A stretch of 64,000 bases of DNA from Scenedesmus sp. ARA3 (taxonomy: Eukaryota > Chlorophyta > Chlorophyceae > Sphaeropleales > Scenedesmaceae), in NCBI GenBank assembly GCA_004335835.1, contig RWJK01001742.1, positions 47,109-111,108 of the forward strand, read 5' to 3'. Shown piece after piece: positions 21,700 to 60,000 of this stretch. The notes beneath the pieces were generated by a model, which did not search any database, had not been told where the DNA came from, and worked only from the letters and a program-made list of their open reading frames with translations. Each line of letters begins with the position of its first letter. Position 1 is the stretch's first letter. A program made the translations under genes and the position numbers.

Positions 21700-23777
21700 A
21701 TGGGGATCCCTGGCTTCAATACCTGGTTCTATGAGAACAACAAGGCTGCGTACCAGCCACTGGCTCAGACAACAGTGGACCATCTGTACATTGACATGAA
21801 CTCGGTGCTGCACAATGTGCTGCGAAAAGGTAAGGCACAGCATCCTATGTGCCTAAGCCATGCACGCACTGGAGTGGGCTCACCTCCGCCGGTCATAGCA
21901 ACTGGCATGCAGCTGCTGTGCTGCTGCTGCTGCTGCTGCTGGTGCTGGCCCAGCCGTGCCCTCATGCAGCAGCTGCTCAAGATCTGTCTTGTGCCAGCTT
22001 CAAACCGCTGTCTTATAATCCCTGCCAGCCAAAATCATGACAGCTACCACCTGCTGCTGCACAAGCCCTGCCAGCTGCCCATGTTTCTGCAAACCCAGCG
22101 CATTCCTGCAACCCCTGTGCATTCCTGCAAACTTTCCTGCAGCCGAGCACTACGACAAGTACCACGCGCTGCTGCACAAGCGGCTGGACGCCATCCTGCG
22201 GCTGACCAACCCCCGCAAGAGCGTGATGCTGGCCATTGACGGGCCTGCACCGCTTGCTAAGCTCATCACGCAGCGCGAGCGGCGCAAGGTGCGGCAAACT
22301 AGAATTGTTGTTGTGCGGTTTTTGGTAGTAAGTGCTTTGTTCGGGGTGACGCTCCTGGCGAAGCTCATCACGCAGCGTGAGCGGCGCAAGGTGCGCTGCT
22401 GTTGGTGCTTATATGGAAGTGATGTGTGCTACAGCAGTGCTGTGTAGTGCGCCATCTCATCATGCAGCAGGAACCATGCATAGTGACGCGCCTGCTAGGT
22501 GCCATTCTGTGCAGTGCAGCGCAGCGCAATGCAGCGGCCTGTAACCCGTGTAGCACCAGCTTACAATACTTTTGTTTGAGATGCAAATGACACAATAACA
22601 ATGTCATTTGTGGTTTAAAGTTCACAACACTGCGTGTGTGCCTTCTGTGCTCGCAGAAGACATTCTCTGTGGAGTCGCGCAAGAAGGGCCAGCAGCAGCA
22701 GGGCGGCGGCAGCAGCGGCAGCAGCAGCAAGGGCAAGAAAGCTCGCAGCAACGTGGTGTCCAGCACCGCGCTGACACCCGGTACCCCCTTCATGCACGAC
22801 GTGTGTGTGTCCTGCTGCTACTATGTGTGCGCGCGCCTTGCCAACCGCAAGTGGCAGCACGTGAGTCAGTAGTAGCGCTACCCAGCATATCTGTTACACT
22901 TGCGCCTGCCCTGGTTTTGCGTGTTTGCCAGTATCGTACGCTGTCAGCAAATGATGTTTATTGTGGGATGGCCTCAGCTGCTGGTGTGCGCCAAGCAGCC
23001 ACTTTTTGAAACCGTGGACATGCTGCAGCTGGAATAGGAGCTGCCCCACCGTAGCTGGCAAGGGCGATGTTGTATGAGCTGTTGATGCACCAAACACGTC
23101 AGCAACCCACAGCATATTGCCTGTGAATAGATTGTCTGATTTGCAGCTTGAGTGGGAGCTGTCAGGCCCAACTGTGGCTGGCAAGGCTCATATGCATGTG
23201 ATGCTGCTGATGCACCAAACACAATTAAAGAGTGTAAAGTATCGCTTGTTTTGTTGCTTGATTTGCAGCTGGAGTGGGAGCTGTCAGGTCCTACTGTTGC
23301 TGGCGAGGGAGAGGTGAAGATCCTGGGGCGCCTGGCAAGGCCACGCCACGACGACTCGGTGTCACCCGCCGACACACACAGTGAGTGGCGGCTGTGAGTG
23401 ACACGGGTGACGCTAGTGACACGGGTGCGTGTTTGTGTGGGGAGGAGGAAGGGGGCGAGGTGAAGAACCTGGGGCGGCTGGCACGCCATGATGACTCGGT
23501 GGCACCCAGTGACACTCACAGTGAGTGACGCTGGGGTTGACACGGGTGACACTAGTGGCGCGCTTCGGTCACCTGTTTTGGTGACGCGTGTGGGTGGGAG
23601 GGTCAACAGGTGACACAGGTGACACTATTCCAGACACGGCTGGGACATCACGCTAAGCCAGCTTTACTTCTGCTGCTGCTGCTGCTGCTGCGGCTGCTGC
23701 TGCAGTGATTGTTGGATATGACGCTGACCTCATGCTGCTGGCGCTGGTGAGCAGCACGCCGCGGCTGCACACCATCA

Positions 23778-23827
<50 letters not shown>

Positions 23828-24450
23828 AGTGATTGTTGGAGATGACGCAGACCTCATCCTGATGGCTCTTGTGAGCAGCACCCCTCGCCTGCACATCCTC
23901 AACTCAGCGCTTGGGGAAGAGAAGAACCTGAGCCCGCAGAGTGCGGTGCTGAGCGTGGACAAGCTGCATGCAGTGTGGCAGGCAGGCGTGATGGCAGGTG
24001 CGAGCATATATATTAAATGTAATTTTGCATAGCATGGCAGGCTTGCTGTTCGGCTTGCTTCTTACGTTTTTTGAGCCCGCAGAGTGCGGTGCTGAGTGTG
24101 GATAGGCTGCATGCAGTGTGGCAGGCTGGCGTTATGGCAGGTGCGTTGTTTGGTTTTCTGCTTTTGCCTGTACAGCTGTGCAGATGCTGCTGAAGACAGT
24201 GTGCGAGAATGCAGTGCTGAGCGTGGACGAGCTGCATGCACTGTGGCAGGCAGGCGTCATGGTGTCTTGCTGTGTTGCTCAGTCGAAGCATTTCAAGAAA
24301 CGCGCGATAGAGCTGACAAGCATGGTTGCATGCTAGCATTGGCTCCGCTCTCTGTACATCCTGTTGCTTCCAGGCAACTCAACTGATGTCTTTCTTTTAC
24401 TGCACCTCTGCAGGCAAGGCCGGCGCTGTCAAGGGCGGCGGCAAGGCTGC

Positions 24451-24482
<32 letters not shown>

Positions 24483-25213
24483 CGCAGGCGCTTGCAGCGG
24501 CGCAGTTGGCCCCACTGTCCCGGCAGCAGCTGCTGCAGCTGCTTGGTGCTAAATCTGACTTGGCGCTGCTTGCTATTCTGGCCAGTGGCAACGACTACCT
24601 GCCTGCAGTGAAAGGGGCACCAAAACTGGAGACGCTGTGGGCCAGGTGGGTAGCAGCAATACGTTTCGTGTTTTTACTCAGTCTCTGTGTTGTATTGTAA
24701 TATTCTGGCCAGTGGCAATGACTATTTGCCTGCAGTGGAAGGCGCACCACAGCTGTAGACACTGTGGGGTAGGTGAGTGAGCAGCAGCTGGATGGTGCAT
24801 CAGCGTATGTTTTTTGGCAGGATTTGCAGTTGTTGCAGCTGCCTGACGCACTCGGGCTCTAGCTGGGTTTGGCAAGCAGGATAGGGTGGCTGTGCTGGTG
24901 CATGCTTTGGAGTGACCCAGCTCTGCTGCGCTGCGCTGTTTTCCTTGTTGCTGGTGCGCTTTGTTTCTGCAGCTATGTGAAGGTGCGGCAGCTGCCGCAG
25001 TTTGCTGGCTGCTCTATCATCACCATGACCAACAACACACCGCTGGAGCAGCAGCAGCAGCAGCAGCACTTCGCTGCTGCCAACGGCAACAGCAGCAGCA
25101 GCCACAGCCGGGAGCTTGCAGTGTCAGCAGAGCTTGATACGCTGATTCTGTCCGAGGTCCTGGCAGTGGCAATGGAGGGTGCGGGGTACTTCAACACCCC
25201 ACAGCATCCCGGC

Positions 25214-25255
<42 letters not shown>

Positions 25256-28200
25256 AACAGCCACAGCAGCAGCAGCAGCAGTGCAGCTGGTTTGAGCAGG
25301 GAGGCTGCTGCTGCGCTGCCTTGGCTGAAAGGGCTGCTGTGGACGATGAGCATGTACTATGCAGGTGAGCCGCGCTGCTGCTGCTGCTGCCGCTGCTGCT
25401 GCTTTGCTGGGACGGGTGCTGCTTGTATCGGCAACAGTCACACACACTTGTCGGAAGCAGCTGCTGGGATGTCTAATTTAGCACTGCGAACATAGCCGCT
25501 GCCAAGATATACTTACTGTGTGCTGTCGTTATGCATGATGTTATGAAGTGTAACATATGCTGATGTGGCTTGCAACCTTATGTAGCAATTGTGTAAAAAA
25601 AACACCTGCAGGTGACTGCCCCGACTACCGCTGGACCTACAAAGGTGCTGCACCAAGCACAGCAGGCATCCGCGCCCTCGCAGCAGCAGCAACAGCAGCC
25701 ATGAACGGCAGCAGCAGCAGCAACGGCAATGCAGCAGCAGCAGCAGCAGCAGCAGCAGCGCCACAGGGTCCCTCAGAGCATCACAAGCTGCGGCTGAGCA
25801 GCTTTTCTGTAAGCGTGTGCAGCAACGGTGGCAGCAGCAGCAGCAGCAGCAGCAGCAACGCTGCTGCAGGCGCGTGGCAGGCTGCTGTTGCTGCTGCTGC
25901 CGCGCGGCTGGGTGGCAGCAGCGACATCAACTTTGACCCACTGCTGCCACACGTGTGCAGGTGAGGTGCTGGGGGTGCTGCTGCATTGCTGCCATGCAGA
26001 CTCACACTGCACAACGCAGATTTAGCATCAAACACTGTCCGGCAGAACAGAAATGCATATCGCCACATGCACAACTGAAGTCTGTGGGATGCATGATGGC
26101 GTGTCACTGTAGCACGACAAGCGCAGTAAAACGACAGCCTTGCAGCTCAACCAGAACTCGTAGCTCTCTCACACCTGCCGTGAGTAACATGTGGCAGCAG
26201 CAGTGCATCCACGCAAGCGGCACCTTGCACCCAACGCATCCAGCGCAGATCAAGGCAGTAACACGCATTATGCACTCCTGCTGCTGCTGGTGCTTTGGTT
26301 GTATTGCTGCTGCAGTCTCGCGCTGCTGCCCGCTGGCGCGCAGCAGCATGTGCCGGCTGCGGTGCAGCACTTGATGGACAGCGCAAGCCCCATCTACGAC
26401 ATGTACGCTGCCTGTGAGGGCTGTGAAGCGGCAGCACAGGAAGCTTATGTGGCGCAGCGCGCATACGACGTGAGTGGGTGGGGTTCAATGCGTCAGGGTT
26501 TGGCTAGGGTTTGGCTAGGGTTTGCTGGTTTGAATGCTCCAGCCTGTGAGGGCTGCGAGGCAGCAGCACAGGAGGCCTATGCGGTGGCACAGTGCACGTA
26601 CGTTGTGAGTGTTTTAGAGTTTGACTGATTGTTTTGCGCAAAAGTGCCGTAGAACTGCGGCTTGCAATAGATCAGCACAGCAGCACACCGCGTGCTTATC
26701 AGATTACACCATTCTTTGCAAGCACACCCATATCTTTGACTGTTTGCGGTGCTGCCTGCCTTCTCCTCTTTGGCTGATCCACCGTGGATGGATCGCCTTT
26801 TAGGCTGTTCTCGGCCAGATCAAGGCACTCGAGGCAGAGGTGCAGGCTCTGCAGCAGGGCGATGCAGGCGAGCAGCAGCAGCAGCTGCAGGCGCGCCAGG
26901 ACGAGCTTGCTGCTGCCAAAGCTGCTGCGCTGTCTGTGCTGCAAGCGGCACTGGCCAAGCGCAAGCAGCATGAGGCGGCGGAGCACCCAGACGGTGGGTT
27001 GGTTTGCAGCAGTGCAACTTGATTATTGTCATTGTCATCAACACATAATATTCGATTCATCCGTAACCAGCCAGCAAAGGTAGCTCTGTGTCTTTGGTGA
27101 CGGGAGCGTCAGGCGTCTGCACAGCTTTGAACAGTAGAAGGCAGCAGAGCATCCCTTGATGAACTTTGCACACATTTATGAGCCTTGCAAACCCAGTCTG
27201 GGCACCTGCTTGCGCACACATCACAACTTCGTCATTCTGAGCACTTATAACTGTTACTTCGTGTGTGTTTGACTGTCGGCAGGCGTCAACACGTTTGACC
27301 TGGCGCGGCTGGAGGCGGCAGTGGCGGCTGTGCCTGCCAGCAGCTACAGCGGAGAGCAGCGGGCACTCACTCAGCTCAGCCACAGCCTGCTGTTCAGGTG
27401 TGATTTTGTGTCATGTGTTTCGTGTATATATCTGCATCTGGAATGTAACAACATTGCTTGCGTGCAGCTACAGCGGCGAGCAGCGGGCGCTGACCCAGCT
27501 CAGCCACAGCCTGCTGTTCAGGTGAATTTATGTTGTCTGCTGCTGTGCCAGCATGTCCCTAGAATGTATGAGGAGTGGTTTCGGGCAGCTACAGCGGGGA
27601 GCAGCGGGCCCTGACGCAGCTCAGCCACAGCTGCTGTTCAGGTCCGTTGTTTATTATGTTATGATGTTATCATGTGTGTCTGAGGTGTAAAGTGGATGCC
27701 TGCCAGCAGCTACAGCGGAGAGCAGCGAGCCCTGACGCAGCTCAGCCACAGCCTGCTGTTCAGGTGTGATTCGTTTGTTTGCTATTTTGTATATATTTGA
27801 ATCTGGACTGTCAGAAGAATGCTTGCGTGCAGCTACAGTGGCCAGCAGCGGGCACTCACCCAGCTGGGCCACAGCCTGTTGTACATGTATGTTCGACCAC
27901 TCTGCTGCCACGCAAACTGTTTCAGGTGCAGTTGCATTAGGTTGTACACATAAGCACCACATTCACCGTACATGTGACACTGGTTATTGTTTCTGCTGCT
28001 TGTTGTACCCTGCAGGATGGGCCAGCAGCAGCAGCAGGGCCACAACCGGCAGTACAACCAGCAGCAGTACGGCCAGCAGCAGTACGGTCAGCAGCAGTAC
28101 GGTCAGCAGCAGTATGGTCAGCAGCAGTACAGCCGCCTGCCAGGCCGGGCCTTCCGGCCGCCCCCTCCCCCTGTGGAACGCTTTGGGCCTGCCTTCAGCA

Positions 28201-29879
28201 GCAGGGGCTATGGTGGGGGGCCTGTGGTCATCCGTAGCCTACTATGGGAGACTGCCTTCGGCTGCCAGGTGCGTGGTTTCTGCTGCTTGCCTGTTGAGCT
28301 GTTTTCTCGTGTCAAGGGGCAACTTTCGGGGTAGCTTGCGGGGTACAGGGTGAAGCGTGCGGGGTAGTGTGCGGGTGCTGGGTGGAGGCGGGCCATCCGC
28401 AGTTTGCTGTAGAAGACTGCCTTGTTTTTGCGGGCATGGTTTTTCTCGCAACCTGTTACCCTGTCATGTTACATCTCTGCTGTGCATGCAGGGATCAGGA
28501 GGACCCCTTGGCCCTGTGCAGCACTGTCACTCCAGCCATTCTTTCCATTTGTCAAGATATTGAAACCATGAAGCCTAACAAATCTGTGTTGGCTTCTGTG
28601 CATGCAGGTGCAGGAGGACCCGGACTTGGCCCTGTACAGCAAGTATATGGTGGTGGGCACCGACTCAGCAGCAGCAGCAGGGGGTGCTGCAGGTGCTGCT
28701 GCAAGCGATGCAGCAGCAGCAGCAGCAGGGCAGCAGCACAAGCGCAAGCACACGCCGCCTCCTGCAGGTGCAGCCGGCACAGCAACTGCAAGCCAGCAGC
28801 AGCAGCAGCAGGGTGATGGGAGTGCAGCCAGCAACATTGCTGCTGCAGCTGCCCTGAAGGCTGCACTGAGAGCAGCAAGCGGCTCCAAAGCAGTAGCAGG
28901 GCCGCCACCTCAGAATGTGACCAAGGCGAGCACAGCAGACAGTGCTGCAGTGGCTGCAGCAGCAGTGGAGGCTGCTGCTGCTGCCGCTGCCGCTGCTGCT
29001 GCCGCGCTGGCAGCACATCAGCTAACTCCGCCGTCTGCACAGCAGCAGCAGCAGCAGCAGCACGGCAAGAAGCAGCAGCATGGTTCTGGGCAGGGTGATG
29101 CAGCTGCTGCTGCAGCAGCAGATGGGGCCAAGCAGCCAAGGCGCAAAAGCTCGTCGCCTAAGCCACGCGGCAGGCAGCAGCAGCAGCAGCAGGGCCAGGG
29201 CCGCCGCAACAGCGGCAGCAGCAGCAGCAATGGTGCTGCTAGGGATGACTGCCACGCAGTGGGCACTGCACCTGCACCAGCACCTCAGAAGGTGCCAATG
29301 CCGAGCAGCTTGCTGAACAGAGCATCAGCCGGCGGAGCAGCAGCAGCAGCAGCAGGCGGTGCTGGTGGTGTGACAGCTGGGTATGCTGGGCAGGGCGGCT
29401 ATGGTGGCACCTACACGCCGCAGCAGCAGCAGCAGCAGCCGGCGGGTTACAACCCGTTGCAACACCAGTACGACTACCAGCAGCAGCAGTACCAGTACCA
29501 GCAGCAGCAGCAGCAAGCGCAGGGATGGTACCAGCAGCAAGGCAGCTACCAGACAGTGCAGCCTCAGCAGCCGCAGCAGCAGCAATGGCACTGGCAACAG
29601 CACCAGCAGCAGCAGCAGCAGCCGGCTGGTTCGTACAACCCCCTGCAGCAGCAGCCGCAGCAGCTGCAGCCTCCGTGGCAGCAGCCGCAAGTGGCGCAGT
29701 ACCAGCAGCAGCAGCAGCTACAGTACCAGCAGCCGCAGCCGTTGCGTAGTGTGTCGCCGACAGGCATAGCCGCCGGCAGCAGCAGCAGCGGTGGCGTTGG
29801 TGCTGTGCCGCGGCCTGTGCTGCCTCATGCTGCAAGCGCAGCAGCGCGGCTGCCGCTGCCTGGCATGCACTTCCCCTGA
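21700..29879 (+). CDS. XRN-family 5'-3' exoribonuclease with a Gln-rich prion-like tail
   Basis: XRN enzymes degrade 5'-monophosphorylated RNA processively in mRNA turnover and transcription termination. Thirteen exons join with every phase agreeing: 21700-21829, 22143-22288, 22657-22860, 23269-23380, 23830-23997, 24414-24645, 24973-25364, 25612-25960, 26316-26469, 26819-26993, 27283-27397, 28016-28268, 28608-29879 (1233 residues). The catalytic signature is complete: LYIDMNSVLH, AIDGPAPLAK plus TQRERR (basic 5'-phosphate pocket), TPGTPF, AGEGEVKIL, GDDADLI and ASGNDYLP; later come GLLWTMSMYYAGDCPDYRW and DSASPIYDMY. An Ala/Gln coiled coil follows (about 630-687), then YGQQQ repeated (about 735-760), then a basic Ala/Gln region and a tail rich in Gln, Tyr and Asn (about 1070-1210). 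CAG-coded Gln/Ala/Ser runs interrupt the catalytic part. XRN1/4 (cytosolic) or XRN2 (nuclear) type cannot be decided. At least eight exons have echo copies nearby. Confidence 0.9.
22352..22395 (+). repeat. Echo of XRN exon 2 end with 5' splice site
   Basis: Copy of the exon end coding AKLITQRERRK plus the GTGCG splice donor, lying 60 bases into the following intron. Confidence 0.85.
23028..23225 (+). repeat. Two echoes of XRN exon 4 start, upstream of the exon
   Basis: Two copies of the segment coding LEWELSGPTVAG precede the real exon (which starts at 23269), each after a cag. The first (about 23030) has an in-frame stop; the second (about 23150) is intact for about 12 codons and is followed by shared intron sequence tgatgcaccaaacac. 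Confidence 0.85.
23450..23526 (+). repeat. Echo of XRN exon 4 end
   Basis: Copy of the exon part coding GEVKILGRLAR...HDDSV with the CACA/GTGAGT splice donor. It lies in the intron after exon 4, amid short GTGACACGGGTGAC-type repeats. Confidence 0.85.
23706..23785 (+). repeat. Echo of XRN exon 5 start including the DxD active-site motif
   Basis: A second copy of the exon start follows an equally good 3' splice site (ctgctgctgcag) and reads IVGYDADLMLLALVSSTPRLH, in phase with exon 4. It then runs into a CTG tract without a clear donor, so exon 5 proper (23830-23997) is taken as the functional one. Confidence 0.85.
24072..24262 (+). repeat. Two echoes of XRN exon 5 end
   Basis: Two copies of the segment coding AVLSVDKLHAVWQAGVMAG lie in the following intron at about 24085-24143 and 24208-24262. 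The first keeps a GTGCG donor; the second is altered at the donor. Confidence 0.85.
24699..24778 (+). repeat. Echo of XRN exon 6 end, with stop
   Basis: Copy of the segment coding ILASGNDYLPAVKGAP, now with a TAG in place of the Glu codon after the Leu, followed by a GTAGGTGAG donor-like end. Confidence 0.85.
26541..26610 (+). repeat. Echo of XRN exon 9 end
   Basis: Copy of the segment coding ACEGCEAAAQEAY with one codon inserted, ending at a GTGAGT donor as in the true exon end at 26469. Confidence 0.85.
27466..27890 (+). repeat. Four echoes of XRN exon 11 end, ~122-bp period
   Basis: The true exon end coding SYSGEQRALTQLSHSLLF starts at 27342. Copies start at 27466, 27587, 27708 and 27831 (spacings 124, 121, 121, 123). 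The first and third copies keep LLF plus a GTG donor, the second has lost one base, the fourth reads SGQQRALTQLGHSLLY. Shared intron sequence (gtgtatatatctgcatctgg-like) lies between some of them. Confidence 0.9.
28050..28131 (+). repeat. In-frame 15-bp coding repeat (YGQQQ)
   Basis: Five units of tacggtcagcagcag-type sequence inside XRN exon 12 encode Tyr-(Asn/Gly)-Gln-Gln-Gln repeats. This is coding, unlike the echoes. Confidence 0.9.
28487..28560 (+). repeat. Echo of XRN exon 13 start
   Basis: After catgcag, the segment coding QEDPDLALYS occurs in shortened form (gatcaggaggaccccttggccctgt) about 120 bases before the real exon start at 28608, which follows the same catgcag acceptor. Confidence 0.8.
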
Positions 29880-30437
29880 AGCGGGTGGGTCGGGAGTGAT
29901 GTGTTGTTGGGCTGTGTTTTGGTGGTTGATGGTTGCTGTGTTTGCTGTTGCTCGGCGTAAGCATGAGAATGCTTGTTACGTCAGGCCTGCCACGGGGTGG
30001 GTTGTGGGCCCTTGGCTGGGCCGGGAATGATGGCAGACGGCTATAGACTGGGTACTCGCTCCATCAGCCTGTCATTGGCTTGACAATGGGCTGTGCTGCC
30101 GTCGTGTGAGACACTAATCGTGATGTATTGGTGGGCTGTGTTTTGGTGGTTGATGGGTGTTGCTGGTAGCACGCATTGTGTAAGTTACACAGTGTAACAG
30201 TATCACCGGCTTTCAAACCTTTTCTCAATCTCAGCTGCTGGCTGCACGCAGGGTCGGGTGACCAGAGTCGAGCAGAAACATTTGAAAAGTGCCACCCTGT
30301 CACCGGCGCGGGAAGCCGGCATCCAAAGCTCAGATGCTTTGGCGGTGCAGTTTCTACAGACTGAATATCAGCAAAGTATGTTTTTTGCCTGCCTTGCAAC
30401 GATCACGAAGTCTGAGTTCCTCCGGATAGACTGAGGC
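29880..30437. other. Intergenic between XRN and membrane-protein copy B
   Basis: No gene seen. Two TGTAA motifs, the usual green-algal polyadenylation signal, occur at about 30178-30200 and may end the XRN transcript. Confidence 0.4.
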
Positions 30438-32756
30438 ATGGCACGGGGTGGCTTGCAACTGGTCCTATGGCTGCTGCTTCTCTGTGTAGCTGCTACAAGA
30501 GCTGATATAAACCGGAAAGAGCTCGCAGCTCGCATGCGCGACAGCCACATGAAGCGGCATGATCCTAAAGCAGCAAAGCAGTGCACCCGCTGCACGTAGG
30601 TCTTGAAGGAGAAGTGAGTTCATTGGATCCATGAAAGACATCAGTTCATGCTGTCACAGCTACATGGGATGCAGCTGGCTTCTCTGGTGCAGGCCGCTGT
30701 GCAGCAGTGCCGTGGCAACTGCTATCTGCTGCTGCCATCCATCTCATCTGTGCGGCTTGCTGCAGCAAGTGCAGCATGCAGGTGCTTGAAAATGCGTTGT
30801 TCAGATGCTAAGCTCATTCATTTCCGAGCCTTGTAGCTTCGCGAAGCTTCAGACGCTCAATCATCTGCGCAGCTGCTACCTCCCATTGCCTCCACTCGCT
30901 GCCCCAGTCCTGCAAACAAGTTGTAACACCTGCTGCTCCTGCTGTCAACCGCTGCAGGTGGATTGATTCAGCTTTGAGGACGGATGATTACTCCTACAGG
31001 GACTGCCAGTCCTGCCTTGCATCCAAGAACATCAGCACTGTGCTGCGCAACGTGCTGGCACATCACACAACCAATTGGTGGTGAGCACCAGCAGCAGCAG
31101 CAGCAGCACTTGCCAAGTGTGGAGGCAGGCGGTCAAGGGAGAGCTGCTACTATGCGCTGTTACTGTAACACTCTCAGCAGCCTGCAAAGATCACAGTTGC
31201 TTCTGGGCCGTCACATCCATCAGCAGTTTTTTTTGCATTTGGCAGCTCCTCACTGGGTCGACAGTCAGCGGAGCAGACCAGCAACTGAAGGACAGCAGAA
31301 CCATCACATCAGCAAACGGCTGCTATCAGCTGCGAGAAGCAGGCAGCTTGTTTGTGCTTGTGTTCACATTTTGCTCACCACATCTGAGAGCTAGCACAAG
31401 CAGCCGCGCTGTCCTGCAAACCAGCAGGTCTGCTCCGCAGCGCCCCTTTCATGTTCTATTGGCGGGACAACTACGCCAGCAGTCGGCGCAGCCGTGCAGC
31501 ACGCTATAGCTTTTATTTGCACAACCTTTCTGGTTAGGCTCCTGACTGTTTCCTTTACCCTGTGAGTATGCTGTAGCTGCCCGTCTTGTTCTAGCCCGCA
31601 CAGACTTAGGGCCTAAAACTGTCCGTGACAGCAGCTTTGCCTGATTGTCACCATAACGTTCCTGTCAGTGCTTTGAAGCTGTTCAATGCTTCGAAGCATC
31701 TTTGCAATCTTATAAATTCGATCTGTTTTCTGCTTGTCTCGCAGGCTGTCGCGATTCAAGGAGAGCGACCACATCACAGACCACGTGCATGATGATGCAG
31801 ACAGATTCACCGCATCCGGCTACTGCCAAGAGTGCTTGGATGAAAACGACCTGCTGGTGTCCGACGAGAAAGCCTTTCTGCACACGTGTGGCGTGTGCCT
31901 GCACTCCTCAAAAATCCGCCGCTCCAGCAAGCATCAGGTGTCGTGGCACCTCGCAGGCGTGTATCTGGACGCGTACTTGCACACCCCATCGCTGGACCGC
32001 CACTCAAAGTATGCATCGCCAGAGCCTGGTGACTATGATTGCTTTGATTGCGACGAAGACGTCAACGATTTTGATACGGTGTGGCGGGAGTTTGGGCCGC
32101 CAAAAGATGCACTGTCGTCAGTGCTAGGCAAGCGTAGGCGCAGTGGGGCTGCCACCAAACCCAACAGCAAGGGCAGTCCGCGTGCATCTCGCTGGCACAC
32201 TGCACAAAGAACTTTGCAGGACATTGGACTCGCAGTGTCTGCGTTTGCGGCAGTGCTGCTGTGCTGTCTGGTTGGGTGGCGAGCGTACAAGGCAGCTGCA
32301 GCAGCACAAACTGCATCATCGCGGCGCAGGGCAGGCAGGCGTGCACAGCCTGCAGCTGCTGCCACTGGTGTGCCGTGGTTCATCGGTCTTGGTGCTTGGT
32401 ACTTTGCAAAGCACGCGTGGCCTCTGGCAAGCCGGCTTGCTGTTGCTGCGGCTCTGTGGTTTGTGTGCGTCGCCACGCCTGTTTTCTCCCTGTTTGTTGA
32501 CCCAGATAGTTTCGAGGCTGACGCGAACTTCGAACGGCTGTTGGAGGGCACGTTCCTTGAGGGTGAGGCAGAGGAGGCGTTGGGTTTGATGCTGGTGGTA
32601 GGGTTAGGCGTGTGCTTTGCATGGGCCTGGGCGCCACTCGCACCCTTCAGGAAGCTGCTTGCTGCGCTGCAGCACATCAGCAGCGGCCTTGGCCGTGTAG
32701 CAGCAGCAGTGGACACTCTTGCACGTGGAACAGCGATATCGCTGTTATCTTTTTAG
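30438..32756 (+). CDS. Cys/His-rich signal-peptide multi-pass membrane protein, copy B (family not recognised)
   Basis: Three exons: 30438-30595 (or -30613), 30958-31080, 31745-32756; phases agree and exon sizes and junctions match copy A at 13396-16787. The product (about 430 residues) begins with a signal peptide (MARGGLQLVLWLLLLCVAAT), then RDSHMKRHD...QCTRC, DCQSCLASKNISTVLRNVLAHH, WWLSRF, CQECLD, FLHTCGVCLHSSKIR, SKHQVSWHLAG, DCFDCDEDV and WREFGPP: a set of paired Cys and His that could bind zinc or form disulphides on the lumenal side. At least three hydrophobic segments follow (VSAFAAVLLCCLVGW; RLAVAAALWFVCVATPVFSLFV; GLMLVVGLGVCFAWAW), then APLAPFRKLLAAL. With the downstream donor (GTGAGT after 30613), exon 1 contains a TAG at 30597-30599; using the GTAGGT donor at 30596 removes it and keeps the phase. 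Function unknown. Confidence 0.68.
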
Positions 32757-33216: not shown

Positions 33217-36200
33217 ATGGCAAAAGTTATGGACAGAGACACGATCCAGTTCATCATGCGATCCATGACCACCAACAACAGGCAAGTGCACACTAACAGC
33301 AGCAGGAAGCAGCGCGGTGCGGCTACTGCTCCAGGCATCCGATGGTAGCGCTTGTGCAATGAGCTGTGTGCATTCATGCGGCATCCACACCTTACTCCAG
33401 TACCCTGTGAGTGGCAGGTGTGCAGTGTTTCTATGTAATGCAGACCAGCTCTTGCTGCAGACCAGATCTCTGCTGCCTTGTAGTGCAGCTGATCAGATCA
33501 TGAGCACCTGGCAGCACCCTGCCAATACAACTTGCAGGATGGCATGCCCCTGCCACATGTACTAGGGATCCTTGTGCGCTGCGCAGGGAGTTGCAGCGTT
33601 GCGTTGGCACGTCAGCTCCTCACTGATGATGTGAAGCTGTTGCAATTATCTTCTGCTGTGCTGTGCCTTTCTCCTGTGCTGTTATGCTGCTGTACTTGAT
33701 TACTGCGCAGGGAGCTGCAGCGGCGTGTTGCAGACCAGTTCCTCACTGATGACGTGAAGCTGGTGCACGTCCTGGGCGATGTGCAGGGCAGGGACGCCCT
33801 GTACGGCGTGTACAGGGCAGCAGTGACAGGTGGGTGATGCGTGTATTGCATGGTGCATAGGGTTTTGCGCTTCACTGGGAATGTGCAGGCCAGGGACTCC
33901 CCGCGTCGGACGCGCTGTACGGCGTGTACAGGGCAGCAGTGACAGGTGGGTGATGCGTGTATTGCATGGTACATTGGGTTTTGCGCTTTACTGGGAATGT
34001 GCAGGCCAGGGACTCCCCGCGTCGGNNNNNNNNNNNNNNNNNNNNNNNNNNNNNNNNNNNNNNNNNNNNNNNNNNNNNNNNNNNNNNNNNNNNNNNNNNN
34101 NNNNNNNNNNNNNNNNNNNNNNNNNNNNNNNNNNNNNNNNNNNNNNNNNNNNNNNNNNNNNNNNNNNNNNNNNNNNNNNNNNNNNNNNNNNNNNNNNNNN
34201 NNNNNNNNNNNNNNNNNNNNNNNNNNNNNNNNNNNNNNNNNNNNNNNNNNNNNNNNNNNNNNNNNNNNNNNNNNTACAGGGCAGCAGTGACAGGTGGGTG
34301 ATGCGTGTATTGCATGGTACATTGGGTTTTGCGCTTTACTGGGAATGTGCAGGCCAGGGACTCCCCGCGTCGGGCGCGCTGTACGGCGTATACAGGGCAG
34401 CAGTGACAGGTAGGTGATTGTGTGTTGCACAAGCTGGGTGCTGCACTTTAGCGGAAATGTGCAGGGCAGGGACGCCCTGTATGGCGTGTACAGAGCAGCA
34501 GTAGCAGGTGAGTGCATGTGTTCTCAGGGAGCAACGTGTGAATGGGTTGAACTTCTTGGGCGATGCGCAGGGCAGGGACGCACTGTACGGCGTGTACAGG
34601 GCAGCAGTCGCAGGTGCGGGAATGTGTGTAAGGCAGGGTGGATCAAGTGCTGCATTTTGGTGGGAATGTGCAGGACAAGAACGCGCTGTATGGCTTGTAC
34701 AGGGCAGCATTCACAGGTGAGAAAGTGCGAGTGTATAGAAGTGTTGATATGAAACGGCTGCATTGCAGCGCCAGCAGGGACGCGCTGTATGGCGTGTACA
34801 GAGCAGCAGTCACAGGTAAGGAAGTGTGCGTGTGAAGCGAATGTGGAGCGAAAGGGCTGCATTGCAGCGCCAGCAGAGGGGCGCTGTACAGCGTGTTACA
34901 GGGCAGCAGTCACAGGTGGGTGTGGGGCTTCAAACATCTGCATTGTGCGTGCATCACAGCAGCAGCAGTGCGTGCTGCATTAGCTGTTCTGGCCAGCACA
35001 CCCATGGGTGTGATCCAAGCAGTGTTTGCAGGAAAGTATTGCACTGCAGGTAACAGCTGCTGCTTCCCCCTTAGCCGCAACTGCAGGCCTGGACTACGAG
35101 CTGCTGTTCACCGAGATGGTGGTGGATGAGCACATTGCAGCATGCTGGGTGGACCTCAACATTGAGCTGGCACCCTTGTACAAAAATGTTGACGGCTGCT
35201 GCTGCTGCTCCTGCAAACGTGTCTGCCTGCTGCTGCAGGCCTGGACTACGAGCTGCTGTTCAACGAGATGGTTGTGGATGAGCACATGGCAGCATGCTGG
35301 GTGGACCTCAACCTCAAGCTGCCGCCCTTCTTCCTCAGGCGCTACCACCTGCCCACGGTGGTCATGCTGCGCTTCAGACACTGCGAGGACGGCCTGTGAG
35401 TAACATAACTTTGCTGCTGCACTGGATGCCTTGTTATCGGGTTGTCAGTGCTTCTTTTGAGAACTTCAGCAGCAGTCCATTGTACGAGTACAGGTACCAC
35501 TGCATTAGTTGCCTGGCTGCGCTCGCTCACAAGGAGCGGCGCAGAAGGCATCCACTGCAGTGGCGCCTCCTCTTGGCCATTTATATGATAAATAAACAAA
35601 ATTACAGCAAGTCGTGATGCATGACGCGCCGGTATTGCAGCGACCTTCTATGCTCCCTGCAGCAGCACCACTTCCTTATCAAAACAATAAGGTTCTGGTG
35701 AATCACAGCGTTTGCAGTAAGGCTTGATGCATAATGTAGTGACATTGCAGTCTGCTTCTCTGCAGTTTGCTTTAATGCTCAGTCTGCGTTATGCATCTGG
35801 CAAGCATGACGCCTCTAGGCTAGGTTATAGCGCCCCACATCTGATTGCGTACTTGTGATAACTTCTGCTGCTACTGCTGCCGCTGCTGCTGCTGTTATTG
35901 CTGCTGCTGCCCTGCAGGATTGCATCTGTGAGCAGATTGACCACCACGGCATCTTCTTGGCCATGTGATGATTGCACTGCCCTGAGCACAACTGCTATTT
36001 TGCTGATGCTGCTGCTGCTGATGATGACCCGCAGGATTCGCATCTGCGAGCAGATTGACCACCACAGCGTCTTCGTGCTCATGTGGGCGCTAGGCTGGCC
36101 CTTCAGTGCGGTGTGGGACCTGGTGGTGCGGCGCATCACCGGCACCATGATGAGCACCTCAGGTGCGCTTTTGCTTCCCTTCAAAGTACCATAGGCAAGC

Positions 36201-43689: not shown

Positions 43690-44549
43690 ATGCAGGCAGC
43701 AGGCATGGCTTGCCAGAAGCGCTCAGCAGCAGGGAGCCGCGATGACTGTACCATCATGGTGGATGGCAGCAGCACTGCTGCCGCTGCAACACCAGCAGCA
43801 GCAGCAGCAGCAGCAGCGCCGGCAGTGCGCAGCAAGCCGCGCACCTACTATGTGGACTGGCTGCGAGTGTTCCTGACAGGTGCGTGATGCAACTGCTGCT
43901 TTCCCCTCTTTGCTGAAATAAAGCGGCCATTCATGACACGATACACATGTGAAGTATGCGTCAGCAATCAACGGTCAACAATCGACTCTTCCTGACACGT
44001 GAGTGGTGCGGCTGCTGGTGTTGTTGCCTGTTGAGATAAGCCGCAATCTCATGATGTGTGTATGTACGAGGCATTGCTGTTGGTAGTAATGTGAGCAAGT
44101 ATCTCTTCAGCATTGTCACTGTCAGCACGCCATACAATGCATTGCTTTTGTAATGTAAGCGTAAGTTCGTCGCTGCGTGGGCGTACAAAACGACTGCATA
44201 CACAGCTCGTGCGGATAAGACAGCAGCAGCTAGTGGCGCAGCCATTGTGGCATGCTACACAGCAGCAGCAGCAGCAGCGCCGGCGGCTGTGCTGGTGAAC
44301 AGGGCATCTCAGCAGCAAGTGTCTGCAGCAGCTACCCCCGTTCGTTTGCTTGCAGCAGCTGCAGCTGGCTGCATTGCAAATTGCAGTTGTCACTGCTGCC
44401 GTGCCTGGCATGCTGCTGCTGTCAAATCACGTCACATGCTCCCTTTGAGCGTAAGCCAGTGCTCCTGTGACTTTTTCTGCCGCAGTGCTGGTGCTGCTGC
44501 ACCAATGCATCACGAAGTAACTCAGCACTTGGAAGCCATGGAAGTCACA

Positions 44550-44604
<55 letters not shown>

Positions 44605-46758: not shown

Positions 46759-46759
46759 G

Positions 46760-47475
46760 CTGCCGCTGTGCTTGGATGCCTTGCAGTCTGCCACCAGATG
46801 AGTTGCTGCCGCGCCTTTCACTTTTCACATTTTGGCTGAAGGCAGTGCAACAGTTTCAAACTGGCAGGCAGCTGTCAGCGGTGATGGGGCTGGATGCGCT
46901 TGCGTTCAGCGCTGTGATCAATGCGACGGTGATTAGTTTGCCGGTGGTGGTATGCGCGTGGGCGGTGGCGGCGGCTGTGCGTGCGATCCCAGGCTTTGAC
47001 CGCGTGCTGTAGGCAGCTGCTGTGTTTGGATTGGATGCGCTACAGTGTGTGGCTAGTTGAGATGCTGTTGTTGCCACGCCTTCAATGCATGCTGTGACCA
47101 GCGGCAGTGCAGCATGTCTCATGATGACAGGCAGCTGTCAGCGGTGATGGGGCTGGATGCGCTTGCACCCAGTGCTGTCATCAATGCGGCTGTGTGTTGT
47201 TTGCCAGTGCTGGTGTGCGCGTGGACGGTGGCGGCGGCTGTGCGCGCCATTCCAGGCTTTGACCGCGGCTGTAGGCGGCTGTTCTTCCTTGGATGCCGTG
47301 CAGTGTGTGGCCAGATGAGTTGCTGTGAGATGAGTTGCTGCCGTGCCTTTCACTCTTCACATTGTGGCTGGAGACAGTGCAGCAACTTGCAAACTGACAG
47401 GCAGCTGTCGGTGGTGGCTGTGGCTGTTTCAGGCTTTGACCAGGCTTTGACCATGTGCAGTGCTGCTGGCAAGGT
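46760..47475 (+). repeat. Echoes of the acyltransferase 3' end after the stop
   Basis: Two long copies of the last ~130 coding bases plus 3' flank: the segment coding VMGLDALAPSAVINA to IPGFDRVL recurs at about 46880-47012 (complete to the stop) and 47144-47275 (end altered), with a short remnant (ggctttgaccaggctttgac) near 47430. The spacing is about 255-265 bases. Confidence 0.9.
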
Positions 47476-49027: not shown

Positions 49028-49192
49028 CATTGCATTGCATTTGTTACACGGAGGCGGGTCTCACCAACCCCGCAGGGGCTAGGTACTGCCAGTCAAGCCA
49101 ACACTCCCTGGCATTGCATTGCATTTGTTACACGGAGGCGGTCTCCCCAACCCCGCAGGGGCTAGGTACTGCCAGTCAAGCCAACACTCCGC
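49028..49192. repeat. 84-bp direct tandem duplication
   Basis: Two units starting at 49028 and 49112 share cattgcattgcatttgttac and aaccccgcaggggctaggta, with only a few differences. The origin is unknown. It lies about 300 bases before the tRNA. Confidence 0.9.
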
Positions 49193-49507
49193 CGATTAAG
49201 CCCTCGTATCATAAGGACCAGCGGGTATTTGTCCAACCTCCAGTTCCCCACACCACCGTAAACGCAAGCATGCATGCAATACAAGCCTTTGTTTGGTTTG
49301 TTTGTGCAAGCCCAGAAGAGGTCTGTTACAGGGGGGGGCAAGCGATCACCCTTAAGTGAGTCACTTGCCCCTGCAAGCCCTGGCTGCGCTGAAAAATTGG
49401 CTTTGCGGCATTCACCACTTGCTGCTGCTGCCACGTCTGCATCCAGCAGCAGGGGTGCCTGCCTGCACATCAGTGGCCTTCCGATGCTCAGGTCGGCGGT
49501 TCGAACC

Positions 49508-49606
49508 GGGTCTTTGGCGCAGTTGGTTAGCGCGTAGGTCTCATAACATGACTCAATAAGAGTGAGAGACATCCTAAGGTCGCCAGTTTGATCCTGGCAA
49601 GGCCCA
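49508..49606 (+). tRNA. tRNA-Met(CAT), elongator type, 25-nt intron
   Basis: The cloverleaf folds: acceptor stem GGGTCTT with AAGGCCC (one G-U), D arm GCGC-agttggtta-GCGC, anticodon stem and loop TAGGT-CTCATAA, variable region AAGGTC, T arm GCCAG-TTTGATC-CTGGC, discriminator A. The anticodon CAT and the sequence GCGCGTAGGTCTCATA match plant elongator tRNA-Met, which also has an intron just 3' of the anticodon; here the intron is 49546-49570. The T loop has T at position 56, where C is nearly universal, so the gene may be weak or a recent pseudogene. CCA is not encoded. Confidence 0.82.
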
Positions 49607-49639
49607 GAACACTCGCGGGTTCAGGCACGCTGCATTTTG

Positions 49640-49751
49640 CACCTTCACGCACACCTGAAGCAGCTGCCGCGCGCCGTCCTCAGCCGGCCCAGGGCGCGCC
49701 CTCCACCTGATGGACCACTACCGCCAGCCTTTCCACAGCGTCAACGTTCCG
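49640..49751 (+). other. Possible orphan exon
   Basis: A frame reading ALHLMDHYRQPFHSVNVP ends at a consensus GTAAG donor (49752). I could not link it to a neighbouring exon or a family, so it is recorded only as a candidate. Confidence 0.2.
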
Positions 49752-51785: not shown

Positions 51786-51823
<38 letters not shown>

Positions 51824-54026: not shown

Positions 54027-57000
54027 CTAATCCCAGTAGCCCACCATAGGTCCCAGTGCATCACCTGCACTGAGAGCCTTCGGGGTCAAGTCAACGCCAG
54101 AGCCACTCAGCCGCCACTGCTGCTGCTGCTGCTGCTGCTGTACTGGCCACACGCTGCCTGATTGCTTGCCTGATAGCTTGCCTGCGTCCTGGCTGCCCAT
54201 GACATCATCCAGCGCGCTGCAATCCACGCCTCGCGCAAACGCCTTGCGCCCGGTCACAAGCACATTGTCAAACGCCTGCATCTCGCTCACGTCAGCGCCA
54301 GTGCTCACAGCAGCAGCAGCAGCGTCTGCCGCATTGCTGCGCAGCGCCTGTAGGGCTTGCAGCCGCTGCTGGTGCGAGCCGCTGTTGCCTAAATGATCCA
54401 CAGGAGGCACGCTGTGCCGCCGCACCGCAGCAGCTTGCTTAAACCCCCCACCTTGAACCCTCCCCGGCCCTACCGGCCCTGCATCTGCGCCGCTGCCAGC
54501 CGCACTGCTGCCCAAGCCCAAGCCAGGGTTCAGCCCAGCCGCCAAAACCTGATCCAGGGTTCTGTAGCCTCCTCCTGCTGAACCGCCGTTGCAGGTCTGC
54601 AGCACTGCACCCGCTGACAGTGGCAGCCGCATCGCTGCTGGTAGAGCTGCAGCAGCAGGGCGGGCCCAGTTTGCCCTGGGGGTCACAGCCTCAGGGATAG
54701 CCTGCAGGCCACGCACTGCTGCTGCAGCTGGGGAGGCATTGTTGAAGCTGACACTCTTGCGCACTGGCTGCCTGGCGACGCCAGCAGCAGCAGCAGCGGC
54801 AGATGTAGCTGCCTGGGCAGCAGCAGCAGCTGCTGCAGCGCTGCTGTTGTCCGCTGCCTCAGCAGCAGCAGCTGCAGCTGCAGCTGCTTTTGCGACACCA
54901 TAAAAGCTTGCTGCGCCGGTGCTGCCGCTGCTGGCGCCGCTGCCGCGCCTGCTGCTGCTCCTGCTGCTGCCGCCAGGCTGCAGCACACCTGGCAGTGGCG
55001 CAGACGCACTGGCAGCAGCAGCAGCAGTCGGCTGTAGCCACGGCCCGCTGGGCCAGCTCTGCTGCATGTCCATGTGCTGTAGCGCAGTTAGCTGCAGCGC
55101 CAGTTGCATCTGCAGCAGCTGCTCTGCGACAGCACTAATGCAGGGCCGCTCTGCCGGCTCTGCTGCCCAGCACTGCTCAGCCAAAACAATGAGCTCAGGA
55201 GGAGATCCTGGCTGCCAGGGGGGCCGCTGCTTGGCTAAAACAAGCTGCATGACCTCCATGCTGTGGCTGCAGTTCCTGAAGGGAGTGGTGCCGCCATGCA
55301 CCACCTCCCAGACTGCAACAAAGTGACAGAAAAAGAGGTGCGACGGAAGCAAGACGGTCAGAAACTCAACATGAGCAAGCAGGCACGAGCTGCATGACCT
55401 CCCAGCTGTGGCTGCAGTGCCTGAAGGGGGTGGTGCCGCCATGCACCACCTCCCAGACTGCAAGGAAAGAGGTGGCAAGGGAAGCAGAAAGCAAGAAGGT
55501 GAGCAAACAGCATGAGCAAGCGGCACGAGCTGCATGACCTCCCAGCTGTGGCTGCAGTGCCTGAAGGGGGCGGTGCCGCCATGCACCACCTCCCAGACTG
55601 CAGAAAAAGGGTTGACAAGGGAAGCAGAAAGCAAAAAGGTAAGAAAAGCAACATGAGCAAGCCAGCACCAGCCGCATGACCTCCATGCTGTGGGTGCAGT
55701 GCCTGAAGGGGGTAGTGCTGCCATGCCACCTCCCAGACTGCAAAAAGAGAATGAAGAGTGCAGAGAGCGTGCATGTGGTGATTACGTAGCAGTAATGCAG
55801 TTGTAAACAGCTTGATTTATCCTCACTGGTAATTACGTAGCAGTAATGCAGGTGTAAACAGCTTGACTTATCCTCACTGAACACCATGTGCACTGTCAGC
55901 AAGCATCCAGTGCAGCACACGATGAGGCTGTACGGCTGCCCAGCAGCACCACCACCAGCAGCAGCAGCAGCAGCCACCTAATAAGCATGCCCATGCTGTA
56001 CCGTGGACGGTCTGACGTAATACCACGTCACTCTATATCAACATAACATAAGACAGCAGCAGCAGCCGCCACTCACTGAGCATGCCCATGCTGTACACGT
56101 CAGCCGCCTTGGACTGCTTGCCGGTGAGCAGCAGCTCCGGCGCCATCTGCAGCAGCAGCAGCAGCAGCAGCAGCAGGGTGCAGGGACACAAAAGTGTCAG
56201 CAATCTTGCCGCATACTTGGTGCTAGTCTGATAACGCCTAGTCTGATAACAGCGAACTGCACTCAGCAGCAGACTGCAATCCAAATTCCTGTCTCCCATC
56301 ACCATACTGCTGCTGCCTGCGACCTTTAACCCTCAAACGACGGCCATGCAATGCATGAATACGTTCCAGGCTGTTGAAACACCATTAGGCTCACATGCGT
56401 GATGGCGCCTTGTTACTGTTGCTGCCGCTCGTGCTGCTGCTGGTTGATGCTGTCGGTCGCGTCCAGCAAGTGCAAATGAATGCAATGCACTAACAGTGGC
56501 TCACCAATTTGACACAGAGTGCATACCCCGTTAACAGTGCACTCACGTGTGTGATGGTGTGAAGGCTCTGCGTGCTGCTGCTGCTGCTGCTGCTCGTGCT
56601 GCTGCTGCTGCTTGTGCTGTTGCTGACTAGTGCCGTCGTTGCAGCCTCATGTTTGCGATATACTCACGTGTGTGATGGTGCCCAGGCTCTGCGTGCTGCA
56701 GTGGCTCTTGCCTGCATCCAAAGCCCTGGACAGCGAGAAGTCCATCACCTGGACATGAAAGCCAACAAAAACACAGCAGGTTAAGACACACCAGATAACC
56801 AGATACTTCACACACAGCAGGATGTATCAGGATAGGATGTCGGACATGTACACAGCAAGCTGGGCCCACAAGTGCCATGCAAGCAGCACACAGCAGCCCA
56901 AGACAGACTGGCATACATTACGCACTGCTGCTCGCCAAGCAGCACCGGCAACTGCCTACACAGGGCCTCTGCTGTGCTGCTGGCTCCCTTAGTCACAGTT

Positions 57001-60000
57001 GTGTGCTGCTCATGCGAACGCCTGCTGCGCAGAGTTGTTGGTTACAAGCGTAGCCACGTCGCGCAATGCTGGGGTCAAACATATGGTCAAACATGCGGTC
57101 AAACATGTGGTCAAACATGCGGTCAAACATGCGGTCAAACATACCTTGCACACAAAGTCGACGCCCTCCGCGTTGCGGCTGCTGCTGCTCCTGCAGCTCC
57201 TGCCGCCCTCCGCATTGCCGTTGCATGCTGCAGGGCTCGTCGCATCCGCTGCTGCTGCTGCATTATTGTTGTGGTTAGCAGCGGGCTGCGTGCTGACGAG
57301 GCAAACATTGCCTGCCTTCAGGTCCCCGTGCATGAGGCCCTTGCTGTGGAGGTACTCCAAGCCGCGCGCAACATCCAGCAGGCACGATAGCATGCGCTCC
57401 TGATGATGCAGCAAAACAAACAGCGAAGACAGAGAAAATGAGACAATTTAGCGGTGTGCTGGCAGCAAAGGCAGGGACATGAGCGACGGGCAAGCAAGAG
57501 CAACAGCCGCAACAGCACACAGCAGCGAGGTTGCAACAGAGCTGCCGGCCGCCGCAGCAACGGCAGGCACCCTGGCTGTCAATTTGACACACTGCGCAGC
57601 GCAGCACCAAATCGCCAACCCGTCAAAGCAAGTCTGCAGCTACAATTGCGCACTGAAATGTACACACCAGCTGCACAGCATGTCAACAGCAGCCAGCAGC
57701 AGCAGCAGCAGCAGTGCCTCACCATGGTCGCAAACTTGCCATTCTTTGCTGCTGCGTCCAGCGGCCCGCCATCACACAGCTCCTGCACAATCCCTGCAAA
57801 CAAGCAACAGAAAGACCATACATCAGTTGAAGGTCAGTGTGCGAAGCGTTACTAAGGCGGTGCTTCTACTCGACGAAGCTACTGCTGACCGAGCACTGTA
57901 CCGCAAGCGTCACAGCATGCTATTAACCGGCACCACCATGCAGCCTTCAGATGCAGCACGATGCAACAATGATGCTTTGAAACAGCAACTTGCAGCAAAC
58001 GGGCCATCACAGAAGCTTGCAGGAAGCACCCCAACAATGCAGCTTGCAGGAGCCAGCCAGACACAGCAGCTTGCAGGACACCGATCAAAACGAAACACAG
58101 CTTGCAGCAGCTTGCAGGACACCACCGGAACACAGCAGCTTGCAGGAAACGCGCGCACACACATGTCTGCGCCTCCAGATCGTCCTCGTCCTCGTCGTCG
58201 TCAAAAGTAACACAGCATCGTGCAAGATACTATTAAACACCACAGCTTGCAGGCAACAGTCAAACAAATCAGCTTGCAGGACGCACATGTCTGCGTCTCC
58301 AGATCGTCCTCGTCATCGTCAAATCCAACACAGCAGCTTGCAGGATACTGTTCAACACCACAGCTTGCAAGCCATGCTCAAACAAATCAACTTGCAGGAG
58401 ACGCACATGTCTGCGCCTCCAGATCGTCCTCGTCATCATCAGCTGCGCCAGCCACCCCCAGCCAGCCGTAAGCCGCCTCTGTGTCAGCAGCACCCAGCTC
58501 CAGCACGCCACACGCTGACGTGGCAGTGCCTGCCGCAGCGTCCAGGTGCAGGCTGCTGTAGCGGCGGCCGCCTTCCTGCAAGGAGCCGCCGCCGCAACCC
58601 GACACTGCTGCTGCTGCTGCTGGTTCGGCAGCCGCCTCGTCATGCGCGCCGCTGCCGCTGCCGCTAAACGCTGTACGTAGCATCTGCTGGCCCTGCTGCT
58701 GCGGCGGTGCCGCGCCGCCGCACTCGTCATCAATCACAGCCTTGGCTCGCTGCCACATGAGCACATGATGTGTCTGCACCACATTCTTGTGGCAGGCCTG
58801 CAGCATGAGGTCTGTTTCGTGCACTGCATGTGCTGCTGCGCGTAGTCCCGAGTGGTAAAGCACTTTCACTGCTACTGGCTGACCCCGCCACTGGCCCTTG
58901 TATACTTTGCCATGTGCCCCACAGCCCAGCACGACACCTGGCAGCACACCAGAAGGGTTTGCAGGAAAACGGCGTTGCAGGAAACAGAGGGCGCAAGTGA
59001 AGTCCTGGGTGAGACAGCAGCAGCAGCTAGGGCCCGCGGCGTGCGTGCGGCACAGTGCCCACACAGCAGCGGAATGTGCAGGCATGCTCAGCCTGGTGCC
59101 AGGGCATAGATGCTTACAAAGCAGATATGCTTGGATGCCGCATGGCTGCATGCATCTGTAGGCGTGCCGGAGTGTACAATTTTGCTGAAAAGACAGAAAT
59201 ACAACCGTCAAGTGCAGCGTGTGCACGCACGCCACTGCCTCATGCGCGCCGCACATTGCCACCGCGCTGATGATCATTCATCCAAAGCTCCACACTTGCA
59301 GGAAGCACACTTGCAGGAAGCACGCTTGCAGGAACACACTTGCAGGAAACAGCAGCACACTCACCTAAGCTGATGTCCTCCCCAGCCTGCTGCTGCAACA
59401 TGCTGCTGCCTGACTCCTGCTGCTGCTGCTCCTGCGGCAGCTGCCGCTGCTCGCTCCCTGGCTGCGAGGATGCAGCCTGCACAGCAGGGCTGCTCCTGCT
59501 GAGCACACAAGTCCATCCGCAGCCCAGCGGCGTTACGGTGTTGGCAGATGCTCGCCCGCTCAGAGGCAGCGGGCCGCTGTCTGACCTCACACCCGACTTG
59601 CTGCCGCCACTGCTGCCGCTGCGGCTGCTGCCGGCCTTGCTGTGGTTGGGCTGTTTATTGAAAGAGATGCTGTCATGCGCTGCGATCCTGCAAGCCGGGC
59701 TGCCGCTGCTCCTGCTGCTGACGCTGCCGCTGCCCACCGTGAGCAGCGAGGTTTCTGCTGCTGATGACGGTGCTGCTGCTGGTGCTGCTGCTGGTGGCAG
59801 TTGGCTGTGCAGGCCCTGCCACAGGGCCTCGGAGCCCTGCTGCTCCTGCTGCTGCCGCTGCTGCGACTGCGACTGCAGTTGCTGCTGCGGTGCAGGCTGC
59901 TGCTGCTGCTCGTTGTGTGCAAGGTAAGTGGCGAAGCTAGGTGCTGCGAGTTCTGGGACGCTGTCGTCAAAGCTAGGTGATGCTAGTGCATGGGAAATTT

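Follow-up and report, generated by a model that had tools for sequence, protein, structure and literature searches.

Tandem partial copies of coding-exon edges in the introns of several unrelated genes of a Scenedesmus-like green alga

Why should the starts and ends of coding exons recur in tandem beside the exons themselves? The question is raised by a 64,000-nucleotide stretch of Scenedesmus sp. ARA3 (contig RWJK01001742.1, positions 47,109 to 111,108; the whole stretch is hereafter called the window), which is part of an 87-Mb assembly of 1567 contigs and in which an initial annotation had noticed such repeats, between 22 and 59 kb, in six named genes. Using Tandem Repeats Finder and self-BLAST or self-alignment of the window, we found that these repeats are real, and 21 of the 24 arrays detected in the window begin within 22-59 kb. 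The gene names fared less evenly. The XRN gene was confirmed by the Pfam XRN_N profile, the acyltransferase (43.8-46.8 kb) has its closest named relative in Scenedesmus and the kinase exons were confirmed at 54.0-59.3 kb on the minus strand, whereas the names PEX13, NTF2-like and SLOG gained no Pfam confirmation on the open frames tried.

To relate the repeats to exons, we used four genes with homology-supported exons, two of the window (XRN and acyltransferase) and two located elsewhere in the assembly (CCT1 and CCT5). The exons of CCT1 and acyltransferase were placed by spliced alignment; those of CCT5 and CCT8 came from composites, in which some exons are missing; and those of XRN were placed by spliced alignment, for which a composite and three distant homologues were used, no Tetradesmus obliquus protein being among the results of the XRN protein search. 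The CCT1 protein encoded at locus L012 is identical to the T. obliquus protein P0039 at 494 of the 495 residues compared, a likeness by which the source organism is T. obliquus itself or a very close relative.

In the four genes we counted 77 partial copies, which fall at 38 of the 63 exon edges: 37 copies at 17 of 22 edges in CCT1, 21 at 9 of 14 in CCT5, 12 at 8 of 22 in XRN and 7 at 4 of 5 in the acyltransferase gene. When L012 was searched with the true CCT1 protein, most exon ends were found to recur one to five times in the adjoining intron. Copies with less than 28 bp of exon, or consisting mostly of CAG/CTG, such as the 'copy' of acyltransferase exon 1 at 44260, were left out of the copy statistics (by length only in the analyses of composition and of flank and distance). 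The side on which a copy lies follows a strict rule. When the exon halves were searched separately, all 34 copies of start halves lay upstream and all 39 copies of end halves lay downstream, that is 73 to 0 (62 in CCT1, CCT5 and acyltransferase, and 11 in XRN), and a control with reversed queries gave no match in CCT1, CCT5 and acyltransferase. Copies on the expected side only are what would be seen if each duplication spanned one junction, and the same rule rejects retrocopied exon fragments as their source.

The arrays themselves point the same way. In 19 introns (the 11 of CCT1, five of the seven of CCT5, one of CCT8 and two of acyltransferase), 27 of the 28 arrays cover exactly one exon edge and none covers both; the two CCT5 introns with missing exons lie outside this set, while their edges are included in the 63 edges above. 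Adding eight of the nine XRN arrays and one hand-added minisatellite of CCT1 intron 9 gives 37 arrays in five genes, of which 35 cover exactly one edge, and never both. That minisatellite (L012:7239-7437) is confined to the intron and begins at the donor of CCT1 exon 9. Uniform placement would put 10.5 of the 37 arrays at edges if the present intron lengths are used, and 18.4 if the reconstructed pre-duplication lengths are used; among the arrays whose best identity reaches 93%, 11 of 11 are at an edge, as compared with 3.45 expected for present lengths. The association of the arrays with exon edges is therefore strong. That the process is aimed at exon-intron junctions is unproven, because arrays holding an edge may simply be easier to see: with a visibility advantage of 3, 5 or 10 times, the p value for 35 of 37 becomes 0.0002, 0.0075 and 0.14, respectively, so that a tenfold advantage makes the count unsurprising. 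Subject to this argument, the arrays also depart from generic minisatellites, whose position would be independent of edges. Hence the initial annotation was right in proposing short tandem duplications across exon borders, with one junction per array and in several unrelated genes; the contrary outcome that it had envisaged, copies no more frequent at splice junctions than in intergenic DNA, could be checked within introns, and there arrays lie at exon edges rather than in the interior.

The copies have a recurrent anatomy. The smallest step is 90-150 bp in 121 of the 156 arrays of all loci, and the exon portion of a copy measures 63 bp on average (SD 19, range 30-132 bp). The splice dinucleotide is preserved in 61 of the 64 copies that reach it, and in all seven CCT1 introns that hold both kinds of copies the end copies come first and the start copies after. 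Several arrays repeat whole units, intron flank included, head to tail, and up to six copies were found in one array. A splice site is dispensable, because one array spans the acyltransferase stop codon. The intron flanks of the copies are far more diverged than their exon parts; on average they resemble the real flank more than shuffled sequence does (mean z 1.5 for 56 copies, five of them above z 3), and in one copy identity extends over 68 exon bases and five bases into the intron, after which the following 45 are unrelated. As for intron length, arrays occupy 5890 of the 8331 bp of intron in CCT1, and removal of the copies leaves a median intron of 287 bp (24 introns), to be compared with 202-389 bp for the ten introns of array-free loci (measured after exclusion of profile matches that resembled copies or contained stops) and a median of 237 bp for 64 kinesin introns. 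In our reading, repeated events lengthen introns, from about 290 bp up to 1.6 kb. Telomere-like TTTAGGG/CCCTAAA motifs are frequent in the CCT1 introns of L012 (48 and 33 eight-base matches); being few in the other loci, they were rejected as a general partner of the duplications.

In the window, the arrays that could be assigned to exons are as follows (the eight XRN arrays detected are counted as nine, since one of the eight comprises two repeats that differ in step and lie at the two edges of a single exon).

22253-22395, plus strand: end of XRN exon 2 (22143-22288) and a copy, step 102 bp
23024-23308, plus strand: start copies of XRN exon 23269-23380, step 118 bp
23307-23557, plus strand: end of XRN exon 23269-23380 and a copy, step 146 bp
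23703-23901, plus strand: start of XRN exon 23830-23997 and a copy, step 124 bp
23929-24262, plus strand: end of XRN exon 23830-23997 with two copies at steps of 143 and 268 bp
24574-24786, plus strand: end of XRN exon 24414-24645 (start uncertain) and a copy, step 127 bp
26410-26611, plus strand: end of XRN exon 26316-26477 and a copy, step 132 bp
27331-27895, plus strand: end of XRN exon 27283-27397 with a multi-copy array whose step is about 121-124 bp
33579-34922, plus strand: exon at about 33711-33829 with a start copy and at least six end copies, an assembly gap lying within; read from the sequence without a homologue
35081-35329, plus strand: start (AGLDYELLF...) of an exon read from the sequence, with a copy at a step of 152 bp
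44480-44710, plus strand: start copy of acyltransferase exon 44652-44804 and the exon itself
44742-45042, plus strand: end of acyltransferase exon 44652-44804 and two copies
45270-45718, plus strand: two start copies of acyltransferase exon 45653-46755 and the exon itself
46624-47426, plus strand: acyltransferase coding end (stop codon and 3' flank) and two further copies, step 254 bp
55240-55750, minus strand: array next to a kinase exon (positions 192-258 of the profile PK_Tyr_Ser-Thr), step 145 bp; edge approximate
58061-58441, minus strand: array between kinase exons, step 118-135 bp; edge approximate

Eight of the nine XRN arrays cover exactly one exon edge, the remaining one (28477-28641) lying outside the gene model, and all four acyltransferase arrays cover one edge, which in one case is the stop codon. 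The region at 33.6-35.4 kb, which was read without a homologue, appears to hold an exon with both ends copied, its end being repeated at least six times more. Within this array, 34026-34274 is an assembly gap of 249 N, and the copy number there is uncertain because the 99 bases after the gap equal the 99 before it. Two other observations concern the window. A 58-bp stretch of GGTGACAC-like repeats occurs, with 91% identity, in an XRN intron (23545-23602) and in an intron of a tRNA-synthetase locus (L024:4923-4980), and is possibly a small dispersed element. The segments 14105-16789 and 30436-32674 form an inverted pair with 69-87% identity, perhaps an inverted gene duplicate.

How general are these arrays? 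The initial annotation spoke of most multi-exon genes, a wording that is too strong. In 20 gene loci, which belong to three conserved families picked by us and are not a random sample, 13 carry roughly three arrays or more per 10 kb, with a range of 0-15 arrays in ten CCT loci and again of 0-15 in six tRNA-synthetase loci, whereas the four kinesin loci are almost free of them (0, 0, 2 and 0). In five arbitrary loci the counts are 7, 0, 0, 1 and 1, and in eight short kinase loci 0, 0, 0, 1, 0, 0, 7 and 2; outside the modelled genes, such counts are of arrays irrespective of exon edges. Several CCT and tRNA-synthetase genes are full of copies, and other genes are free: arrays occur in 10 of the 11 introns of CCT1 and in none of the 10 introns of four array-free loci (p=3e-5). 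We also looked for the same profile segment occurring twice in neighbouring hits, using the kinesin rows and 74 of the 86 p450 rows (the 12 on single-hit contigs were omitted), and found it in 3 of 33 kinesin genes and 2 of 32 p450 genes. An origin of the array-free loci in another organism was rejected, as their GC, CpG and CAG contents are similar and their third-position GC values overlap.

The substitutions that separate exons from their copies were informative about the history of the latter. Differences between exon and copy number 91/1621, 75/1610 and 310/1599 at codon positions 1, 2 and 3, respectively, and those between copies of one edge 108/1308, 104/1287 and 239/1278. A neutral copy of a constrained exon is expected to show a third-position rate at most twice as high, and p for the excess over neutral decay is about 1e-11, and 3e-7 when each edge is represented by a single copy; both values are rough because the copies of one edge are related. 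In 36 of the 77 copies there is at most one change at positions 1-2, yet 103 of their 694 third positions differ. Such a synonymous excess hints at constraint on the protein level, an idea rejected by two other features of the copies: they carry 5 stops for 146 missense changes, near the neutral share (about 3% stops expected), and 15 of their 18 indels are not multiples of three (3 are). The copies are therefore not coding. Base composition was likewise rejected as a cause, as it fails to explain the excess. Because neutral-looking stops and frameshifts coexist with differences that fall mainly at third positions, the simple decay of a duplicate is insufficient, and we infer from these sequences that the divergence accrued while both lineages were functional exons, which would imply exchange between diverged versions of the gene. 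The decay of similarity with distance from the exon, which the initial annotation had described, did not hold up: the similarity does not fall with distance (Spearman 0.06, p=0.64), and, of 20 groups compared, 12 have their greater similarity in the nearest copy and 7 in the farthest, the two being equal in 1. At L012:3962-4162, residue 224 of CCT1 is Thr here and Ala in P0039 (T224A), and the adjoining copy has the P0039 state.

Can such a copy become an exon? Holding only part of an exon with one splice site, copies are not exons until another site arises. In T. obliquus, a second annotated CCT1 isoform, P0041 (contig up to 4.4 Mb), has nine extra residues that map exactly to L012:8824-8850 (G000:C1492), within one of the exon 10 end copies, the third. 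A base unique to this third copy creates a new AG, and the copy's own donor completes an in-frame exon of 27 nt. Judging from the annotation and the sequence, the copy would have supplied a small new exon to the annotated isoform P0041. Two other annotated proteins, P0039 and P0040, use the outermost splice sites only; P0040 probably derives from transcripts, because its contigs measure at most 1.85 kb. In the CCT1 protein of Scenedesmus sp. NREL 46B-D3 (P0044), a foreign-looking stretch stands where one exon should end and the next should begin; the gene model was perhaps misled by similar copies. The expectation of new introns and exons in the initial annotation can thus be kept for exons, in whose birth the copies likely take part, and not for introns, since it is existing introns that are lengthened and the order of the copies does not suit the known AGGT route of intron gain considered below.

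From these lines of evidence, we propose, as an explanation that we judge somewhat more probable than its negation, that the repeats arise by tandem duplications silent for splicing, together with exchange between diverged versions of the gene. Each repeat would be a short duplication at the DNA level, usually of 90-150 bp, across one edge of a coding exon, be it a donor, an acceptor or a stop codon. It would stay silent, since an intact edge would remain in position, namely the first donor or the last acceptor; and, donor copies preceding acceptor copies in introns that hold both kinds, no acceptor-then-donor pair could be read as an exon. The outermost sites would then yield the normal mRNA, the normal CCT1 protein being known, presumably in a cell that recognises exons rather than introns. 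The duplications would have arisen by, or been reshuffled later by, recombination between diverged gene versions, in which exons would be the best-matched stretches; because of the third-position excess, the time shared as functional exon would exceed the time that the copy has spent as non-coding DNA. Most copies would be neutral, an occasional point change making one of them a new exon. Several points weigh against this proposal. The intron flanks of 33 of the 56 copies have z below 2 and are not clearly above shuffled, and three copies have an essentially unrelated flank and an exon part that is 88-100% alike, whereas simple tandem duplicates of such an age would be expected to be more alike there. 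The difference between copy-full and copy-free genes is left unexplained. Finally, the exchange between diverged versions was deduced by comparing the DNA of one genome, and was not observed. A related reading, which we regard as possible though rather unlikely, sees the repeats as scars left when strongly diverged versions of one gene recombined: exchange would begin in exons, no other stretches being well matched, and fail where homology stops at the edge, so that the old edge ends up next to the new one.

The divergence of the flanks would be accommodated if duplications of about 120 bp fell uniformly over introns whose sequence turns over fast, only those holding exon remaining recognisable since coding selection keeps one copy, and if population recombination later added the synonymous differences. 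With earlier introns near 290 bp, half of the placements (18.4 of 37) would touch an edge, and a tenfold visibility advantage would cover the remaining excess; yet a fivefold one still leaves p=0.0075, the 11 most similar arrays are all at an edge against 3.45 expected, and genes wholly full or wholly free are not explained, so that we view this account as a serious possibility and still a rather unlikely one. Were the junction itself targeted, by duplication coupled to splicing or transcription through RNA-DNA hybrids or breaks at exon borders, one would understand both the 35 of 37 arrays at splice sites and the roughly midway position of the junction in the step (the exon part of a copy measures about 63 bp, the step 90-150 bp). 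However, this centring is also expected, we argue, if about 30 bp of exon are needed for a copy to be seen and some intron for the acceptor; one array crosses a stop codon, which is not a splice site; and CCT subunits expected to be co-expressed differ widely in their arrays. We therefore find such coupling improbable.

Selection for decoys or spare splice sites, which would agree with the 61 of 64 intact dinucleotides and with the copy that serves as an exon in an annotated isoform, seems to us very improbable, as most dinucleotides would be intact anyway at about 0.05 changes per site (positions 1-2) and the stops and indels look neutral. An assembly artefact, by collapsed haplotypes or repeats, could be suspected from the array with a gap between 99 identical bases on each side; it is scarcely credible, because the copies, up to six per array, differ from each other and from the exon, and because P0041, on a 4.4-Mb contig that exceeds any seen in the present assembly, holds the 27-nt exon exactly. 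Least credible of all are introner-like mobile elements carrying splice sites, even though the copies bear such sites and the XRN and tRNA-synthetase introns have the 58-bp stretch in common: every copy matches its own adjoining exon, and no large dispersed family appeared in the loci examined, the distant matches listed for the window being four segments of the one inverted pair and the 25 listed of the 38 matches between loci falling mostly in seemingly paralogous exons. Introners, too, change introns on a large scale in algae. They are mentioned in PMC12730881, and the present case differs from them in that no shared element was seen in the examined loci and no new intron positions were shown.

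Returning to the proposal of silent duplications with exchange, we can place it among the described cases. The closest that we met concerns the potato RdRp gene, in which a tandem duplication that ran from an intron into an exon gave rise to a new intron (PMC4974935); there, as here, the 3' part of an intron was duplicated with the 5' part of the next exon, including the branch site, the tract and the acceptor. The copies of the present alga likewise combine part of an exon with the adjoining intron and a single splice site, and they lie next to the original in the same orientation. The potato case is one event in one gene, which gave a new intron, whereas here both kinds of edges and a stop codon are involved, the copies form arrays at many exons per gene, and existing introns are lengthened, the exon order and the protein of CCT1 being unchanged. 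In the model of Rogers (ATP2A1), an intron is gained through a duplicated exon segment containing AGGT (PMC4974935), which is also a tandem duplication within a gene that leaves the protein unchanged; in that model the copy of the next exon's start comes first and that of the previous exon's end last, while in the present alga the order is the reverse in the seven CCT1 introns with both kinds, the intron pre-exists and none of the 73 copies of exon halves lies on the wrong side. Whole-exon tandem duplications (PMC9013439, PMC12343006) similarly repeat exon sequence beside itself, but the present copies, as far as checked, are partial and carry one splice site, the annotated exception having gained an acceptor.

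In the open-licence literature, to which our search was confined, we found neither a description of genes with arrays of their own copies at most exon edges nor a T. obliquus genome paper describing copies of exon edges. Single duplications across an exon border, by contrast, have been published already. If the repeats were scars of exchange, genes would be scarred at nearly every exon or at none, providing a record of which genes were exchanged, and the scars would feed the birth of exons. If general, the phenomenon would offer a cause of intron lengthening that is strong and can be tested; a natural experiment in which the spliceosome chooses one among up to seven near-identical sites; a reason to regard automatic gene models in this group as unreliable; and a standing stock of half-made exons.

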